Positions 1,395 to 32,611 of a stretch of DNA of 64,000 bases are shown here, piece by piece (within the stretch, counting starts at the first letter, position 1; each line of letters opens with the position of its first letter). Made by a program: the position numbers and the translations under genes. The DNA is from Opitutia bacterium (GTDB lineage Bacteria > Verrucomicrobiota > Verrucomicrobiia > Opitutales > Opitutaceae): positions 62,001 to 126,000 of the forward strand of contig JACPIS010000037.1 of assembly GCA_016187925.1 (NCBI GenBank). Direction: 5' to 3'. The notes below the pieces were generated by a model. The model did no database searches, was not told where the DNA came from, and saw nothing but the letters and a program-made list of their open reading frames with translations.

Positions 1395-3626
1395 ATGATC
1401 GTGGGTGTCCAACCGCTGGCGGGCTTCGACAAGCTCCTGCACTACCGGGTGCCGGAGGCTTTGCGCGCGCACCTGCGGCCGGGCCAGCTCGTGCGCATCC
1501 CGATCGTCAACCGCCAGCATCTGGGCCTCGTGCTCGAGACCGACGCCGTGCCCGACGTGCCGGTGGAGAAACTGAAGTCGGTCAGCGGCATCCTGCACGA
1601 TTACCCGGCGCTGACCCCGGACCTGCTCGACCTCGCGCGCTGGATGCACGGCTACTACGCCGCGCGCATGGAGGCGGTGCTGGAGGCCATGATCCCCGCC
1701 GCCGTGCGCGACGGGGCACGGCTCAAGCAGGAGAAATACCTCGCGCCCGCCCGCGCGCTCACGCCCGACGAGCACGCCGCCCTCGCGCGCAAAGCCCCGA
1801 AGCAGGCCCGGCTCTACGATTTCCTGAAACAGCAGTTCCACCCGGTGAAGAAGTCGCTCGTGCTCTCGCGGCTCGACACGACCGCCGCCGTGGCCGCCGC
1901 GCTGGTCAAGAATGGTCTCGTGCGCGAGGAGGCGCGGCACGTCGAGCGCGTGGCCTACGCCGACGGCTGGTCGGGCGGCGAGGTCGTCGCCGCGCAGCCA
2001 CCGAAGCTCAACGAGGAGCAGTCCGCGGTCGTGGGCTCGGTCTCGGGCAGTCTGGCGAAGGGGAAATTCGCGGTGCACCTGCTGCACGGCGTCACCGGGT
2101 CGGGCAAGACCGAGGTTTATCTGCGCGCGGTCGAGGAAGTGCTCGCCGCTGGCGGCAGCGCGATCTACCTCGTGCCCGAGGTGGCGCTCACGCCGCAGAC
2201 GGTGGCGCGGTTGCGCGGACGCTTCGAGGCCGCGGGCCATCAGACCGTCGTCTGGCACAGCCACCTGAGCGAGGGCGAACGGCTCGACGGCTGGACCGCG
2301 CTGGCGTCCGGCCGGGCCAGGGTGGTGGTCGGCGCGCGCTCGGCGGTGTTCGCGCCGGTGCACAACCTGCGGCTCATCGTCGTCGATGAGGAACACGAAC
2401 CGGCCTACAAGCAGGACGAGACGCCGCGTTACCACGGTCGCGACGTGGCGGTCTACCGCGCGAAGCTCGCGGGCGCCGTCTGCCTGCTCGGCTCGGCCAC
2501 GCCGTCGCTCGAGTCCGTCGCCAACGTCCGCGCGGGCAAATACCACCTCAACACGCTGACCAAGCGCGTCGACGACAAGCAGCTGCCCGACATCCATGTC
2601 GTCGACATGCGCGTCGAGATCATGCGCACGCGCGGCATGGTCACGCTGTCGCGCCTGCTGGTCGACCACATGCACCGGCGCTTCGAGCGCAAGGAGCAGA
2701 TCATCCTTTTCATCAACCGTCGCGGCTACTCGTCGAGCATGCTCTGCCGGAAGTGCGGCCACGTGGAGGAATGCCCGCATTGCAGCGTGGCGATGACCTA
2801 CCACCGCGCCGATGAGACGTTGAAGTGCCATCTGTGCGGCCACCAGCGCGGCGCTCCGGCCGTGTGCCCGAAGTGCGCGGCGCCCGACATCCGCTGGCGC
2901 GGACTCGGCACGCAGCGGGTCGAGGAGGCCGTGCGCCGCGTGCTGCCGCGCGCGCGGTTGGAGCGCATGGACACCGACACAATGTCCAAGAAGCACCGCT
3001 TCCGGCAGATTTTGTCGGACTTCCGCGCCGGCAAGATCGATATCCTCATCGGCACGCAGATGATCGGCAAGGGGCTGGACTTTCCCAACGTCACGCTCGT
3101 CGGGCTGGTCGACGCCGATCTCTCGATGCACGTGCCGGATTTCCGGGCCAATGAGCGCACGTTCCAGCTCCTCGTGCAGGTGGCCGGCCGCGCCGGTCGT
3201 GGTGATCGCGCGGGCGAGGTGGTCGTGCAGACCTTCACCCCGCAGTCGGGTGCGATCCAGTTTGCCCGGCACGCGGACTTCAACGGCTTCGCCGACACCG
3301 AGCTGGCGATGCGAAAGAGTTTTCAGTATCCGCCTTACCGGCATCTCATCCACCACCTCTTCCGCGGACCGAACCCGGAGAAGATCAAGTTCTACTCCGA
3401 GCACTGGGTGAAGAAGGTCGAAGCCGCGCTGGGCAACGCGGTGGAGATCCGCGGGCCGTCCGCCGCGCCGATCGAGAAGGTGAAGGACGAATACCGCTAT
3501 CAGGTCTGGTATTTCACGCACCGCACCCAGAAGGTCGTGACCGAGCTCGTGAAACTGCAGAGCGAATTCGCATGGCCCGAGGACGTCACGCAGGTGCTCG
3601 ACGTCGACCCGATGAGCCTCGTCTGA
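1395..3626 (+). CDS. priA: primosomal protein N', replication restart helicase PriA
   Basis: A 743-residue protein of normal PriA length. An N-terminal fork-binding domain is followed by helicase motif I ([12 protein letters not shown], near residue 235) and a DEEH box near residue 331. Paired CxxC zinc motifs lie between about residues 452 and 494 ([13 protein letters not shown], then CHLCG and CPKC). The later motifs GTQMIGKG and [11 protein letters not shown] complete the DExH helicase. PriA reloads the replisome at stalled forks. The ATG at 1395 begins [11 protein letters not shown], the expected PriA N-terminus. It converges on the nitrate cluster, with an inverted repeat between the two ends. 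Confidence 0.97.
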
Positions 3627-4822: not shown

Positions 4823-5628
4823 CAGGCCGGACTCAAAGCGAGCGCCGCGGCGCGGGCAACCGGTTTTCCGGCGGGGCGCGGGCCTGCTTCGCCCGGGCTG
4901 CGGGCGACTTCGCCGACGATGATCAGGAGCGGGGCGGAGGGCGCGGCGGCTTCTGCCACCGCCGCCATCGTGCCGAGCGTGGCCGGCAGAATTTGCTGTT
5001 CCGCCGTGGCCGCTGCGGCGACGAGCAGGACGGGCGTGTCGGCGGGCAGGCCGCCCGCCTGCAGTTCCGCGGAAATCTTCGCCGCGCGGCGCCGGCCCAT
5101 GTAGATGCAGAGCGTGGCGTCGAGCTTCGCGTAGTCGGCCCAGCGCGTGACGCGGCCGGGCAGGTCGGGTGCCTCGTGTCCGGTGGCGAGCAACACGGCT
5201 TGGCTCAGCCCGCGCTCGGTCAACGGCACTTGCGCCGCGGCGGCTGCGGCCACGGCCGCCGTGACGCCCGGCACCACCTCGCAGGGCACGCCGGCGGCGG
5301 CCAGCGCCGCGAGTTCCTCACCGCCGCGGCCGAACACGAGCGGGTCGCCGCCCTTCAGCCGCACGACGCGCCGGCCGGCGCGCGCCAGCCGCACCAGCAG
5401 CGCGTTGATCTCGGATTGGGGGCGGCACGCCCGGCCGCAGCGCTTGCCGACATCGAGCAGCTCCGCGCCGGGCCGCGCCCACGCCAGCACCTCGACGGGA
5501 CTCAGGGCGTCATGCACAAGGGCGTCGGCGGTCTCGATGAGACGGCGCGCCTTCAGCGTAAGCAGCTCGGGATCACCCGGGCCGGCGCCGACGAGCCAGA
5601 CGAAACCCAATTTGGACAGACGGGTCAT
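4822..5628 (-). CDS. cobA: uroporphyrinogen-III C-methyltransferase (siroheme synthesis)
   Basis: A 268-residue SUMT that would methylate uroporphyrinogen III twice to precorrin-2, the route to siroheme. Family motifs are [16 protein letters not shown] near residue 12, [16 protein letters not shown] near residue 100, and VVPGVTAA after it. It has only the methyltransferase domain, so the oxidase/ferrochelatase (CysG N-terminal) function must lie elsewhere. It overlaps the nitrate reductase gene by ATGA and is well placed to supply siroheme to NirA. Confidence 0.93.
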
Positions 5629-29205: not shown

Positions 29206-29601
29206 ATGGATTCCGGCAAGCGGGATTTCGATTTGGAGGAACGGCTGCTCGAGTATGCTGCGGACATCATCCGGCTGACCGAAACCATGCGCCGCACGCA
29301 GGCGGGCATTCACGTGGCCGCACAGTTGCTGCGCTCGGGCACTTCGGCGTTGCCCAACCATGGTGAAGCCCAAGCGGCGGAATCAGCGGCCGATTTCGTG
29401 CACAAGCTGAGCATCTGCCTCAAGGAGCTGCGCGAGACGCGGCGTTGGTTGCGCCTGGCGCAACGCGTCCCGCTGGTGAAGACGGATTCATCCGTTGACC
29501 CGCTTCTCCGCGAGACCGAGGAATTGATCCGGATTTTCTATCGGAGCATCTCCACCGCAAAAAAGCGCACTTTGAGGAAGGAGTCTTCAGGTGAACGTTG
29601 A
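29206..29601 (+). CDS. four-helix-bundle protein of the 23S rRNA intervening-sequence (IVP) family
   Basis: A 131-residue helical protein with the family hallmarks: a short N-terminal FDLEERLLEYAADIIRL, then RSGTSALPNHGEAQAAESAADFVHKLSICLKELRETRRWL. Such proteins are encoded inside intervening sequences of 23S rRNA in spirochaetes and others, and resemble Avd of diversity-generating retroelements. Here it sits between accD and folC, enclosed by imperfect inverted repeats. Its stop overlaps the presumed folC start. No rRNA or reverse transcriptase lies nearby. Function unknown. Confidence 0.85.
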   Translation: MDSGKRDFDLEERLLEYAADIIRLTETMRRTQAGIHVAAQLLRSGTSALPNHGEAQAAESAADFVHKLSICLKELRETRRWLRLAQRVPLVKTDSSVDPLLRETEELIRIFYRSISTAKKRTLRKESSGER

Positions 29602-30931
29602 GCGTTCGGCGTTGAGCGTTGAAAGTTCGGGTAATCCGCCCGCGCCGGATTACCCGGCCATCACCGAGTATCTCTTCGCGTTGAAGAGCATCGGCGTGCG
29701 CTTCGGCATCGATCGCATGCACCGGCTGGTCGAGGCGCTCGGCCACCCGGAGCGCCGCTACCCGGTCGTCCACCTCGCGGGCACCAATGGCAAGGGCTCG
29801 GTCTCGGCCATGCTGGAGTCGATCCTGCGTACGGCGGGCAGCCGCACCGGCCTCTACACCTCGCCGCACCTCGTGAAGCTGGGCGAGCGCGTGCAGGTCG
29901 ACCGCCACATCCTGAGTGAGGCGGAGATCGTGGCCTACACGCACGAACTCCGGCCCGTGGCGCAGAAGCTCGCTGCGGCCGGACCGGACGAGCATCCGAC
30001 GTTCTTCGAGTTCATGACCGCGATGGCCTTCCTGCAGTTCGCGCGCCGGGAAGTCGATGTGGCCGTCATCGAAGTCGGATTGGGCGGGCGGCTCGATGGC
30101 ACCAACGTCGTGCAGCCCGAGGTGACGGTCATCACGTCCATCGGCCTCGATCACATGGAGCAACTGGGCGACAACGTCGCCAAGATCGCGCACGAGAAGG
30201 CCGGCATCATCAAGGACGGCCGCCCGGTCGTGCTCGGCCGCCTGCCCGCCGAGGCGGAGCAGGTGATCCGCGAGGTCGCGCGCGCCCACCACGCGCCGAT
30301 CCACTCGGTGCGCGAGGTTTTCGGCGAGAATCTCGCCGATTATCCCGAAACCAATCTCGAGGGCGACTACCAGCGCTGGAACGCCGCCACGGCCACGCTC
30401 GCCGCGCGGCTGCTGCGCAGCCGGTTCAAGCTCGACGATGCCACCATCACGCGCGGGCTGCGGCAGGTCAGCTGGCCGGGCCGCTGGCAGCGCACCAGCA
30501 TCGGCGGCCGGCCGCTCATCCTCGACGCCTCGCACAATCCCGAGGGCGCGCAGGTGCTGGAGAACAACCTCCACAAGCTCGTCGCCTCGACCGGTCGCAA
30601 GCCCGTCATCGTCACCGGCGTGCTGGGCGAGTTCCGCGCGCGGGCGCTGCTCGACGTCGTCTGCCGCTACGCGAAGGAGGTCCACCTCGTGCCGCCGCAC
30701 CAGGAACGCGCCTGCACTTACGAGCAGCTGGAGACCATCGTGCCCGAGGAGCACCGCGCGCTGCTGCGCCGCGCCACGCTGGAGCAGGTTTTCCCCGACG
30801 CCCACCACTGCTCGGTCGGCGGCCCCGACGACACCGTGGTCGTCACCGGCTCGATCTACCTGCTCGGCGAAGTGCTCACCCGCATCGAACCCGACCGCGG
30901 CTCCGGCGAGGGCCGGTTGCAGGATTTCTGA
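29591..30931 (+). CDS. folC: folylpolyglutamate/dihydrofolate synthase
   Basis: A 446-residue Mur-ligase-like enzyme that would add glutamate to folates. The P-loop HLAGTNGKGSVSAML is near residue 59. Other blocks are TSPHLVKLGERVQVD, EVGLGGRLDGTNVV, ITSIGLDHMEQLGDN and DASHNPEGAQ. The GTG at 29591 lies in the right inverted repeat of the preceding element, so the first 15 or so residues are repeat-encoded; the family part begins at YPAITEYLFALKS. The last 78 bases are duplicated downstream beyond the toxin-antitoxin cassettes. Confidence 0.93.
   Translation: MNVERSALSVESSGNPPAPDYPAITEYLFALKSIGVRFGIDRMHRLVEALGHPERRYPVVHLAGTNGKGSVSAMLESILRTAGSRTGLYTSPHLVKLGERVQVDRHILSEAEIVAYTHELRPVAQKLAAAGPDEHPTFFEFMTAMAFLQFARREVDVAVIEVGLGGRLDGTNVVQPEVTVITSIGLDHMEQLGDNVAKIAHEKAGIIKDGRPVVLGRLPAEAEQVIREVARAHHAPIHSVREVFGENLADYPETNLEGDYQRWNAATATLAARLLRSRFKLDDATITRGLRQVSWPGRWQRTSIGGRPLILDASHNPEGAQVLENNLHKLVASTGRKPVIVTGVLGEFRARALLDVVCRYAKEVHLVPPHQERACTYEQLETIVPEEHRALLRRATLEQVFPDAHHCSVGGPDDTVVVTGSIYLLGEVLTRIEPDRGSGEGRLQDF
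29594..29627. repeat. right arm of inverted repeat flanking the four-helix-bundle gene
   Basis: A 34-bp arm ending GTTGAAAGTT, complementary to 29159-29192 with three mismatches. It overlaps the end of the four-helix-bundle gene and the first codons of folC. Confidence 0.8.
30854..30931. repeat. folC 3' end, copy R1 of a three-copy direct repeat
   Basis: The last 78 bases of folC match 32534-32611 (R3) at 73 positions. The distal 31 bp (30903-30933) also match 31550-31580 (R2) with one mismatch. R1 to R2 encloses one toxin-antitoxin pair and R2 to R3 encloses another. Confidence 0.85.
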
Positions 30932-30958
30932 GCTGAGCTCCCGCAACCTGCGGCTTCT

Positions 30959-31285
30959 TCAGGTTTCTTCGTCGGCGATTTCGCGGATGAGTAGACGCGC
31001 CTGAATGGCATCGGGATCACGCACGGTCGAGAGCACGCCGCCCAGCAGCCAGCAAATGGGAAGCTCGCGGTAGAAAATCGAGAAACCGGGGTGTCCGGGG
31101 ATGATCATCTGCCGCCAGCCGTGCCGCCTGGTGCGACAGGCCTGCGGATTATGTTGAATGACTCGGATGGCGCGCGCGTAGGAGGCGAGAAATCGCGCGG
31201 CAGCCATCGGACTGTAGCTCCGGTAGTAGTCGTAAGCCACCTGCAGGTCGGCGGCGTAACCCTCGGCTTCGCGGAACTCCTTCAT
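30959..31285 (-). CDS. ParE/RelE-type toxin
   Basis: A 108-residue RelE/ParE superfamily protein. It has an alpha-helical start (FREAEGYAADLQVAYDYYRSY), then FLASYARAIRVIQHNPQACRTRRHGWRQMIIPGHPGFSIFYRE, with the central arginines and the strand typical of the fold. The target (ribosome or gyrase) cannot be told from sequence. Its ATG overlaps the antitoxin stop by four bases, antitoxin first, as usual for type II modules. It lies within the cassette between folC repeats R1 and R2. Confidence 0.8.
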   Translation of the reverse strand: MKEFREAEGYAADLQVAYDYYRSYSPMAAARFLASYARAIRVIQHNPQACRTRRHGWRQMIIPGHPGFSIFYRELPICWLLGGVLSTVRDPDAIQARLLIREIADEET

Positions 31286-31494
31286 CGCCGCAGTCGGCGC
31301 TCGGCATCACCCGCCGGTTTCAACCGGTGGGGATGGGCGAGTGCGGAAGCGGCCCGGGAGTTGAGGGTGGCCAGCTGCGAGGCGGTGGGCCCTAGCTTGG
31401 CTTCCGCCTCGCGCCAGAGATGGTCCGCCACCGCAGCCTTTTCACGGGCGGACAAGCGGCGCAACTCGGCGGCGAGACGGGTGGTGACTGGCAT
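31282..31494 (-). CDS. antitoxin of the ParE/RelE-type module
   Basis: A 70-residue protein starting MPVTTRLAAELRRLSAREKAAVADHLW, which fits short addiction-module antitoxins encoded immediately before a RelE/ParE toxin. The basic C-terminus (RLKPAGDAERRLRR) could contact the toxin. I prefer the ATG at 31494 over one seven codons upstream. It has no obvious DNA-binding motif of a named family, so the call depends on the four-base overlap with the toxin gene. Confidence 0.65.
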   Translation of the reverse strand: MPVTTRLAAELRRLSAREKAAVADHLWREAEAKLGPTASQLATLNSRAASALAHPHRLKPAGDAERRLRR

Positions 31495-31549
31495 GGCAAC
31501 GAAGCTAGTCTGCAAATGGACTCAGGCAAGTCGGAAGCTGTTGTCTTGG

Positions 31550-31580
31550 CCGGCGAGGGCCGGCTGCAGGATTTCTGAGC
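31550..31580. repeat. folC 3' end fragment, copy R2
   Basis: 31 bp identical to 30903-30933 except for one base (T to C). It ends in the same GCAGGATTTCTGAGC as the folC stop region and separates the two toxin-antitoxin cassettes. Confidence 0.85.
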
Positions 31581-31827
31581 AGCCGATTGCAATGGTGCTT
31601 GGCGGAGCTGAGTTGCCGGGATTTGCCCTCTGATGATCCTATTTGCCTGGCCGAAATATATGACGATCCAGTTGTCATGGGCAGGGCGCGTCCGTTGGGC
31701 GCGACGTGAATGAAAATGCGGCGGACTCAGGGGTGCCGCCTACCCGGGGTGAAAACCGCTTGCGAGTCGCCTGAGGTGCCGATCATCGCAAGTTGACAAT
31801 GAACTGATGCCCGGCAAATTGTCCGGC
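31581..31827. other. intergenic region between toxin-antitoxin cassettes with REP-like remnants
   Basis: No gene is seen. At 31680-31705 there is a REP-like start (GGCAGGGCGCGTC, identical to the first 13 bases of the mpl-embedded REP). GTGCCGCCTACCCGGGGT near 31732-31750 looks like a degenerate inverted partner. The promoter of the vapBC-like pair must be in the right part. Confidence 0.45.
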
Positions 31828-32073
31828 ATGAACACGGTCACTGTCCGCGAGCTGCAGAAGAACCTGAAGGGCGCGTTGCTGCGTGTGGAGCGTGGTGCGA
31901 CGTTGCGGGTGACCCGGAGGCGGAAGGTGGTGGCCGAAATCGGGCCGGCGCGTCCGTCGGCGGCCACCAAGGGCTGGCCTGACCTGCGGGCGCGGGCGGA
32001 GAGCGTGCTGGGCAAGCGCGTGCTGCGGACCGAGGCGGCGGACGAGGTCCTGGCCGGGCGGGGGGACCGGTGA
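31828..32073 (+). CDS. Phd/VapB-type antitoxin
   Basis: An 81-residue antitoxin. MNTVTVRELQKNLKGALLRVERG followed by LRVTRRRKVVAEIGP fits the Phd/YefM N-terminal DNA-binding fold. The remainder should wrap the toxin. The GTG start of the PIN-domain toxin overlaps its stop by four bases. I chose the ATG at 31828 because it gives the family N-terminus; another lies seven codons upstream. Confidence 0.82.
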   Translation: MNTVTVRELQKNLKGALLRVERGATLRVTRRRKVVAEIGPARPSAATKGWPDLRARAESVLGKRVLRTEAADEVLAGRGDR

Positions 32074-32516
32074 AGACCTATTTCGATTCCAGTGCGCTGG
32101 TGAAAATCTACGTCACGGAAGCGCATTCGGACCGGGCGCGGAAGGAGGCACAAGCGGTGCCGCAGATACCCTTCACCTGGCTGCACACGCTGGAGGTGGG
32201 CAATGCGCTGCGGGTTCTGGCTGGAGGGGGGTTGCTGTCTGCCGAGGAGTCGCGCGCTTTGCTCGGACAGATGGAGGATGACCAGCAGGCGCAACGGCTG
32301 GTCAGCATGACGATGGAGTGGCCGAAGGTGTTTCATGACGCGGTGCAATTGTCGCGTGGGCATGCCGCCCGGCTGCTTTGCCGCAGTCTGGACATCCTGC
32401 ATGTGGCGGTGGCTGCGGAGCTGGGCTGCGCGCGTTTCGTGTCGGCGGACGACCGGCAACTGGCGCTGGCCAAGGCAGCCGGCCTCAAGCCCGTGGACAT
32501 CCGGCAGGCTCGCTAG
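32070..32516 (+). CDS. VapC-type PIN-domain toxin
   Basis: A 148-residue PIN-domain ribonuclease. Acidic residues fit the active site: Asp6 (YFDSSALVKIY), Glu42 (LEVGNAL), Asp108 (SLDILHVA) and Asp127 (SADDRQLALA). Such toxins cut tRNA or rRNA. It starts with GTG at 32070, overlapping the antitoxin gene. The module lies between folC repeats R2 and R3. Confidence 0.88.
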   Translation: MKTYFDSSALVKIYVTEAHSDRARKEAQAVPQIPFTWLHTLEVGNALRVLAGGGLLSAEESRALLGQMEDDQQAQRLVSMTMEWPKVFHDAVQLSRGHAARLLCRSLDILHVAVAAELGCARFVSADDRQLALAKAAGLKPVDIRQAR

Positions 32517-32533
32517 AAAGACGACGTGGTCGA

Positions 32534-32611
32534 ATCTACCTGCTCAGTGAAGTGTACACCCGCATCGAACCCGACCGCGGCTCCGGCGAAGGCCGGTTGC
32601 AGGATTTCTGA
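32534..32611 (+). pseudogene. folC C-terminal fragment, copy R3
   Basis: A 78-bp copy of the folC 3' end at 73 of 78 bases. It would encode IYLLSEVYTRIEPDRGSGEG and the rest of the tail, with Gly to Ser and Leu to Tyr changes relative to folC. It has no start and is a remnant, either of the original folC end or of an imported one. Confidence 0.8.

Follow-up and report, generated by a model that had tools for sequence, protein, structure and literature searches.

Putative toxin–antitoxin cassettes closed by copies of host gene 3′ ends behind folC and other conserved genes of an Opitutia bacterium

The folC locus and its three gene ends

We analysed a stretch of 64,000 nucleotides (the window) from the genome of an Opitutia bacterium (GCA_016187925.1, contig JACPIS010000037.1, positions 62,001 to 126,000), in which two putative toxin–antitoxin (TA) modules alternate with three copies of the 3′ end of folC. 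The folC gene (29591-30931, plus strand) is a complete host gene (NCBIfam TIGR01499, 355 bits against a cut-off of 163), and its functional 3′ end (30854-30931, plus strand; tail copy 1) is the reference for both repeats. Tail copy 3 (32534-32611, plus strand) is identical to it at 73/78 positions, or 74/79 if the next base is added. Tail copy 2 (31550-31580, plus strand), which comprises the last 29 bp of folC and 2 bp more, corresponds to 30903-30933 with 30/31 positions identical. The match passes the stop codon by up to 2 bp in copies 1 and 2 and by up to 1 bp in copies 1 and 3. By eye, copy 3 begins earlier, with a degenerate start from ~32520, ~3 bp after the vapC stop (32514-32516), where GACGAC...GTGGTCG is recognisable with two small gaps. 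Both repeats had been proposed from the sequence in the initial annotation, and our comparison bears them out. A search of the whole genome (3,995,137 bp) with the folC tail gave E-values of 4.6e-37, 1.2e-28 and 4.5e-8, followed by a next best of 0.003, and a 24-base tail pattern with up to three mismatches occurred in three copies only, its reversed control in none. These searches rule out a chance or low-complexity origin of the repeats; with only three folC tails genome-wide, the repeats are not scattered through the genome without cassettes.

Cassette 1 lies between copies 1 and 2 on the minus strand, convergent to folC. It consists of a ParE/RelE-like toxin gene (30959-31285; PF05016 ParE_toxin, 23.1 bits, which barely reaches the cut-off of 23) and an adjacent, overlapping putative antitoxin gene (31282-31515; PF09720, 15.2 bits, below cut-off). 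Cassette 2, on the plus strand between copies 2 and 3, consists of a Phd/YefM-like antitoxin gene (31807-32073; PF02604, 20.6 bits, below the cut-off of 29.8) and a VapC-like (PIN) toxin gene (32070-32516; PF01850, 29.8 bits, above the cut-off of 23.6). A type II TA assignment is supported for cassette 2 by its PIN toxin and the overlapping, adjacent antitoxin gene with its weak Phd match; for cassette 1, with a toxin at the cut-off and an adjacent antitoxin below it, it is no more than tentative. An NCBIfam search with the four cassette proteins gave no match at E ≤ 0.1. The family scans agree with the two pairs read earlier at these places, and we regard both as putative TA modules, with toxicity and neutralisation predicted from their families. 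About 225 bp of unexplained DNA separate tail copy 2 from phd (31580-31806); the spacing is tighter in several other cassettes described below. No recombinase family was recognised among the seven proteins scanned between folC and purA, as the earlier remark that no integrase is visible had suggested.

The DNA downstream of folC was read in 20 relatives (279 bp to 8.3 kb each). None of the 20 had a direct repeat of the folC tail (the stop position in L052 is 111 bp off), which means that relatives without the TA genes do not keep the repeated tails. Convergent purA lies within ~660 bp of the folC stop in 12 of these relatives and 3.8 kb away in the window's genome. Among the 57 genomes with FolC that were searched (the window's included), a detached FolC C-terminus was detected at E ≤ 0.001 in the window's genome only. 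The genome with the most similar FolC (G005) carries a truncated phd remnant and its leader, 72% identical over 97 bp and starting ~90 bp behind folC; neither a ParDE match nor tail copies were found there. This remnant suggests that the Phd/VapC site is older than the window's genome or was hit twice. The initial annotation had proposed to look in relatives for other cassettes ending in the folC tail. No second genome with such a cassette was found, G005 having only the phd remnant behind folC. In other species, other TA genes lie behind clpB (G008) and gyrB (G114).

Recurrence behind other conserved genes

What is seen at folC is not peculiar to it: elsewhere, too, a host gene is followed by a compact TA operon and a second 3′ end of that gene. 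The arrangement recurs at several conserved genes, with the same cassette behind the same gene in two genera, empty sites in most of the relatives compared and tails that are often allele-like. A RelE pair behind gyrB is shared by the window's genome and G336, a genome of another genus (88 and 89% identical, same junction; AAATGACCGCGC), and this cassette is missing in 11 of 12 relatives. Between the distal gyrB tail and gyrA lies an open reading frame of 214 amino acids with a DUF4145 match (C27:82577-83221), whose ATG overlaps the stop of the displaced tail (TGATG); because of this overlap, gyrB, the TA genes, the tail, the reading frame and gyrA look translationally chained.

An antitoxin-like gene and a ruvB tail are found behind ruvB in the window's genome and in G336, with no match in the other 13 of 14 genomes (G009 has too little DNA to judge). 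The gene pair upstream of them differs in G336 (L194), and since the small antitoxin-like gene and the ruvB tail are shared without that pair, part of a cassette may be swapped. In G004 (L200), a stretch ~1978-2063 bp behind ruvB that weakly resembles the ruvB tail (69%) may be an old displaced tail. The VapBC module behind dciA is present in the window's genome, G114 and G006, and missing in 11 of 13 relatives; no distal tail was detected in G006. The six closest VapC relatives among 80 loci in named genomes are all behind dciA, two of the six being G114 and G006 again.

A census of direct repeats covered 1,852,047 bp (46%) of the window's genome, with genes called by a home-made hexamer method. 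Among 73 direct-repeat pairs, 16 had one copy on a gene's 3′ end and four had one on a gene start, the mirror control. Paralogue pairs were removed by eye, five of the tail type (C27:138409, C39:92128, C44:27307, C6:10764 and C6:138753) and one of the start type (C38:68198); the dciA locus was added by hand, as the gene caller had missed dciA. Nine gene-end loci were left, seven of them with a TA module inside. The inserts were a ParE/RelE toxin pair (gyrB), a zeta-like fragment below the cut-off with a small gene (ruvB), mobile mystery proteins A (below the cut-off) and B (clpB), PIN (dciA and a GNAT gene), HicA as well as VapB with PIN (a pilus-like gene), and ParE as well as Phd with PIN (folC). 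The remaining two loci are a thioesterase-like gene (C6:34633-35644), the end of which is repeated at 93% over 56 bp with a YCII-domain gene, not a TA gene, as the insert, and a SufT-like gene (C40:67268-69779), the end of which is repeated twice around a protein of 546 amino acids without a Pfam match. The names pilus-like, thioesterase-like, SufT-like and HicB, and the partner antitoxins without a family match, are our own reading. At the three start-type loci left after filtering, five interior proteins were scanned; one was an IS200-like transposase and none belonged to a TA family.

Direct repeats bracketed 12 of 30 PIN loci examined (from 35 matches in five genomes) and 1 of 24 loci of the longer control gene folC (P = 0.003). 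This contrast is biased, as bracketed loci were already known in four of the five genomes when these were selected. The open genome census is the fairer test. Gene ends could be assigned at eight of the 12 bracketed PIN loci (L106, L109, L110, L113, L116, L120, L125 and L128, leaving L104, L105, L115 and L117) and at 7 of 17 bracketed VapC loci in named genomes; we therefore rejected the idea that every bracketing repeat is a gene end. Among the other VapC loci, L240, L254 and L282 look intergenic, and in L278 and L238 repeats with tRNA-Phe-like stretches bracket VapBC, the site behind VapC lying at ~3390-3550 (L278, L237 and L238). ARAGORN predicted an intact tRNA-Phe gene in L237 and L278 (at 4907-4982 in the latter).

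Flanking direct repeats also accompany TA loci found by homology across the order, and repeat lengths across all loci range from 31 to 530 bp. A ParE in G114 that is 63% identical to that of the folC cassette lies, in the same orientation, between the end of an amidohydrolase gene and a second, 98-bp copy of that end. In G008, an AbiE pair stands between clpB and a second clpB tail; in G114, a PIN gene stands between gyrB and gyrA with no gyrB tail match. The ends of the RadC (L261) and YifB/ComM (L272) genes are used as targets in Opitutales. Outside this group, in Candidatus Ferrigenium straubiae (L292), a member of the Betaproteobacteria, ettA precedes a DUF433/DUF5615 pair, which 59 codons of ettA tail separate from VapBC. 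In L299, a proteobacterial bin, VapBC lies between ettA and a tail of that gene, and a Sideroxydans locus (L306) has a weak 23-bp version of the arrangement. In total, the insert families seen were PIN, ParE, HicA, Phd (weak), mobile mystery A (below the cut-off) and B, AbiE, DUF433/DUF5615 and YCII.

Some of these loci are serial arrays. The pilus-like gene is followed, as folC is, by two TA modules and three tails, and behind ettA in L292, too, a gene tail stands between two TA modules. At least three tails, each array with one recognised TA module, are found at clpB and the GNAT gene of the window's genome and at dciA of an Opitutia genome (L229). The initial annotation had proposed stepwise insertion at folC, and the genome comparisons support, beyond folC as well, a stepwise accretion of putative TA cassettes that each finish with a repeated host gene end.

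Where the copies begin and how they differ

The copies end near the stop codon, from ~12 bp before it to ~28 bp after it in most cases and further away for clpB tail 3 and one of the GNAT comparisons. Repeats that end at or near a stop codon resemble gene-end attachment sites, and site-specific integration would account for them as follows: a recombinase acting in trans, or lost with its island, would target gene 3′ ends, the element would carry a replacement end as its attachment site, and the TA genes would be the remains of eroded islands. Tails of other allele types fit such an element-borne replacement end, and the dciA VapBC relatives in L237 and L278 lie near a tRNA-Phe gene, a classical island site. 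The trans-acting integrase that the initial annotation had envisaged also has candidates, as three tyrosine recombinases are encoded in the genome, the third with 423 amino acids at C40:999. However, none of the three is on the folC, dciA, ruvB or gyrB contigs or near the two cassette loci of C40, and no serine recombinase (Resolvase family) was found in the genome, other transposases not having been searched for. No recombinase or transposase was recognised among the insert proteins scanned, which are not all of the insert proteins.

The starts of the copies also speak against this explanation. Within one gene they differ between cassettes, lying at about −29 and −78 (by eye also −105) in folC, at −170, −63 and about −74 in dciA, and at about −180, −105 and −24 in ettA. 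Differing starts led us to reject a single attachment site, although later truncation may have shifted some of them. The target genes have no obvious common sequence (by eye only), and the repeats reach 530 bp. Together, the variable starts and the lack of a nearby recombinase argue against one attachment site, so the attachment-like site of the initial annotation is not supported if a single recombination site is meant. We consider site-specific integration unlikely, while giving it more weight than the other alternatives below.

To compare the copies, synonymous and nonsynonymous differences were counted for 27 tail pairs. All sites are taken to change at equal rates, and several rows share one gene, so that the P values are rough. 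Nonsynonymous changes were fewer than expected at P < 0.01 in 13 of the 27 comparisons: three from clpB, two from dciA in L229, and one each from the SufT-like gene, ruvB in G336, the amidohydrolase gene, an epimerase gene in G184, ettA in L292, ettA in L299, radC and comM. The synonymous/nonsynonymous counts were 25.5/3.5 in radC, 14/0 (L299) and 13/2 (L292) in ettA, 5/0 in comM and 6/2 in the SufT-like gene. Both gyrB rows of this set were misaligned (only 12 identical codons in the window's genome, the wrong stretch in G336); a separate comparison, used instead, gave six synonymous and no nonsynonymous differences in 18 codons for the window's genome. Because the differences are mainly synonymous, many tails look like alleles of different lineages and not like local duplicates, which we propose as the simplest reading of these tail pairs.

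The clpB locus (C40:142382-144454) has four tails with different C-terminal types. Tail 1 ends in ...KDDALVMK and is closest to G012 (92%), and tail 2 ends in ...KGDELVMG and is closest to G114 (87%), a member of another genus; the latter type also occurs in G010, G009 and G005 of the window's genus. The tail-to-native percentages of tails 3 and 4 were out of register and were not used. ClpB end types are patchy between species of the genus, possibly through end-swapping. Of the three tails behind the pilus-like gene, the outer two are 93% alike and the middle one is different.

Allele-like tails are difficult to reconcile with an insertion that duplicates its target, in which a transposition-like or break-repair event would leave the insert flanked by duplicates of 30-500 bp from the resident gene, with divergence of the copies to follow. 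The 13 comparisons with mainly synonymous change are unlike a dead duplicate, clpB tails 1 and 2 are of different end types, and the middle tail of the pilus-like gene differs from its neighbours. Some copies are nevertheless close, namely folC 1/2 and 1/3, those of dciA in the window's genome (98.8%), SUI1 (94%) and the amidohydrolase gene (94%), and passages on restriction-modification (RM) genes describe long, variable (~100 bp) target duplications (PMC3874152, PMC3031569). On balance, we regard this explanation as improbable.

Towards the TA genes, the distance between the stop of the last TA gene and a co-directional tail is 0-8 bp in many cassettes, but ~24 bp in L292, 35 bp in L229 and 475 bp in L261. 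At 5 of 13 co-directional junctions (gyrB, ruvB, dciA of the window's genome, ettA in L292 and ettA in L299), the TA stop is overlapped by an ATG or GTG that shares the reading frame of the tail, and we dropped the idea that distal tails are never translated. Such starts, and the synonymous excess in several tails, would fit a displaced tail that serves the TA operon as a working third gene, translated into a C-terminal fragment of the host protein and maintained by selection. Yet six of the 13 junctions, folC included, have no such start and one has TTG only; the SUI1 frame is lost through a 1-bp deletion; some displaced tails look neutral (ruvB of the window's genome and folC); and the dciA tail in G006 is undetected. 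A working third gene is therefore the least probable of the explanations considered, and we give it little credence.

Acquisition by homologous recombination and known systems

The variable tail starts, the many target genes, the differing tail alleles and the shared cassettes lead us to favour homologous import followed by retention through addiction. We think it somewhat more probable than all else that the TA cassettes were acquired via homologous recombination in conserved gene ends and were then kept by addiction. DNA with a TA operon beside the end of a conserved gene would enter the cell, where ordinary homology would let it recombine with the gene's resident copy. Whichever 3′ end then completes the gene, the resident or the imported one, its counterpart would be displaced behind the TA operon. 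Direct repeats would normally be lost via recombination between them, and the TA inserts may survive because the TA operon makes this loss costly. With the conserved gene end as homology arm, no integrase would be needed for cassettes to cross from genus to genus or to accumulate behind one gene. Where a start codon at the head of the displaced end overlaps the TA stop, as in some cassettes, that end could be translated, perhaps limiting polar effects. A ComEC-family competence gene is present in the genome.

Several points weigh against acquisition by homologous recombination. Two of the nine census loci have no recognised TA module, and one of these, the SufT-like locus, shows the synonymous excess as well. 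Neutral or uninformative tail pairs include folC 1/3 (two synonymous and three nonsynonymous differences in 25 codons), ruvB of the window's genome (4/8), the thioesterase-like gene (1/3), GNAT tail 2 (1/2), SUI1 (0.5/4.5) and dciA of the window's genome (1/1); some of these pairs, that of folC in the window and that of dciA among them, look like plain duplicates, with differences in folC and ruvB that seem neutral, and the folC tails are too short for their origin to be read from them. Synonymous excess could also reflect selection on a translated displaced tail. Since both end types occur within the window's genus, clpB tail 2 need not come from another genus, and clpB tail 3 shares sequence with tail 1 past the stop codon (by eye). 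A chimera test of gene body against tail was no more than suggestive for dciA (P = 0.055) and uninformative for gyrB and ruvB. A tail start 0-8 bp from the TA stop is not explained by random homologous exchange, and this compact junction is the least understood feature. Finally, we infer transfer from a comparison of genomes, most of which are metagenome assemblies.

Gene-end islands such as e14 in icd and the staphylococcal cassette chromosome (SCC) in rlmH/orfX are the classical case in which an incoming copy rebuilds the 3′ end of a gene and the original end is displaced, and their elements can stand in tandem. The loci at folC, gyrB, ruvB, clpB and dciA share with them an intact 3′ end at the gene itself and another one at the far side of the insert. 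The cassettes differ in having a variable copy start in place of a fixed crossover position, a minimal content of about two genes and many unrelated targets, and in the lack of an accompanying recombinase among the proteins scanned, although one could act in trans. The minimal mobile elements of Neisseria are cassettes exchanged by homologous recombination in conserved flanking genes. They have homologous exchange via conserved genes in common with the process proposed here; there the flanking genes are the arms, whereas here the second arm may come from the duplicated gene end, and mostly TA genes are carried.

A literature search limited to open-access papers turned up no account of a coding gene end duplicated at a TA module. 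A similar case is that of Microcystis aeruginosa PCC 7806, where, in the passage available to us, a ParDE-like module is described just behind an orthocaspase gene between two 152-bp direct repeats (PMC7935541). The first repeat there is said to start 14 bp after the stop codon and to contain inverted repeats, so it does not copy coding sequence from the end of the gene.

RM genes are described in secondary passages as inserting with long, variable target duplications (Nobusato et al. 2000, via PMC3031569, PMC3874152 and PMC1643837). In these accounts, addictive gene pairs lie between long variable target repeats without a transposase, and empty sites are known. Our loci likewise have target repeats of 31-530 bp, empty sites (behind gyrB, dciA and ruvB, together with folC relatives that lack the tail repeat) and no mobility gene among the insert proteins scanned. 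They differ in that most inserts are TA genes of several families and not an RM system, and in that the copies, except possibly those of folC and of dciA in the window's genome, do not fit resident duplicates, given the synonymous excess and the clpB end types. Further features here are a repeat that is the conserved 3′ end of a gene near its stop codon, allele-like copies, stacking and use of the same gene in two genera; RM cases may share some of these traits. The best reading of the TA arrangement is as a variant of RM-type insertion with its long target duplication.

We suggest, tentatively and with somewhat less than even confidence, that a TA operon with a borrowed core-gene end is a distinct integrase-free mobile unit, for which the gene end would be both address and homology arm and addiction the anchor. 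Such units would stack serially behind genes such as folC, gyrB, ruvB, dciA, clpB and ettA and, in at least two phyla, move from one genus to another by homologous recombination. This bears on how lone chromosomal TA modules spread when no vehicle is visible. The units would leave a recognisable scar, a TA operon behind which the end of the upstream gene is repeated. The scar would allow insertions to be counted and dated and donor alleles to be told from recipient alleles, and it would allow a test of whether addiction keeps direct-repeat insertions that are otherwise unstable. Conserved core genes would gain a role as landing sites for selfish modules, which may explain some exchanged gene ends, such as the C-termini of ClpB.

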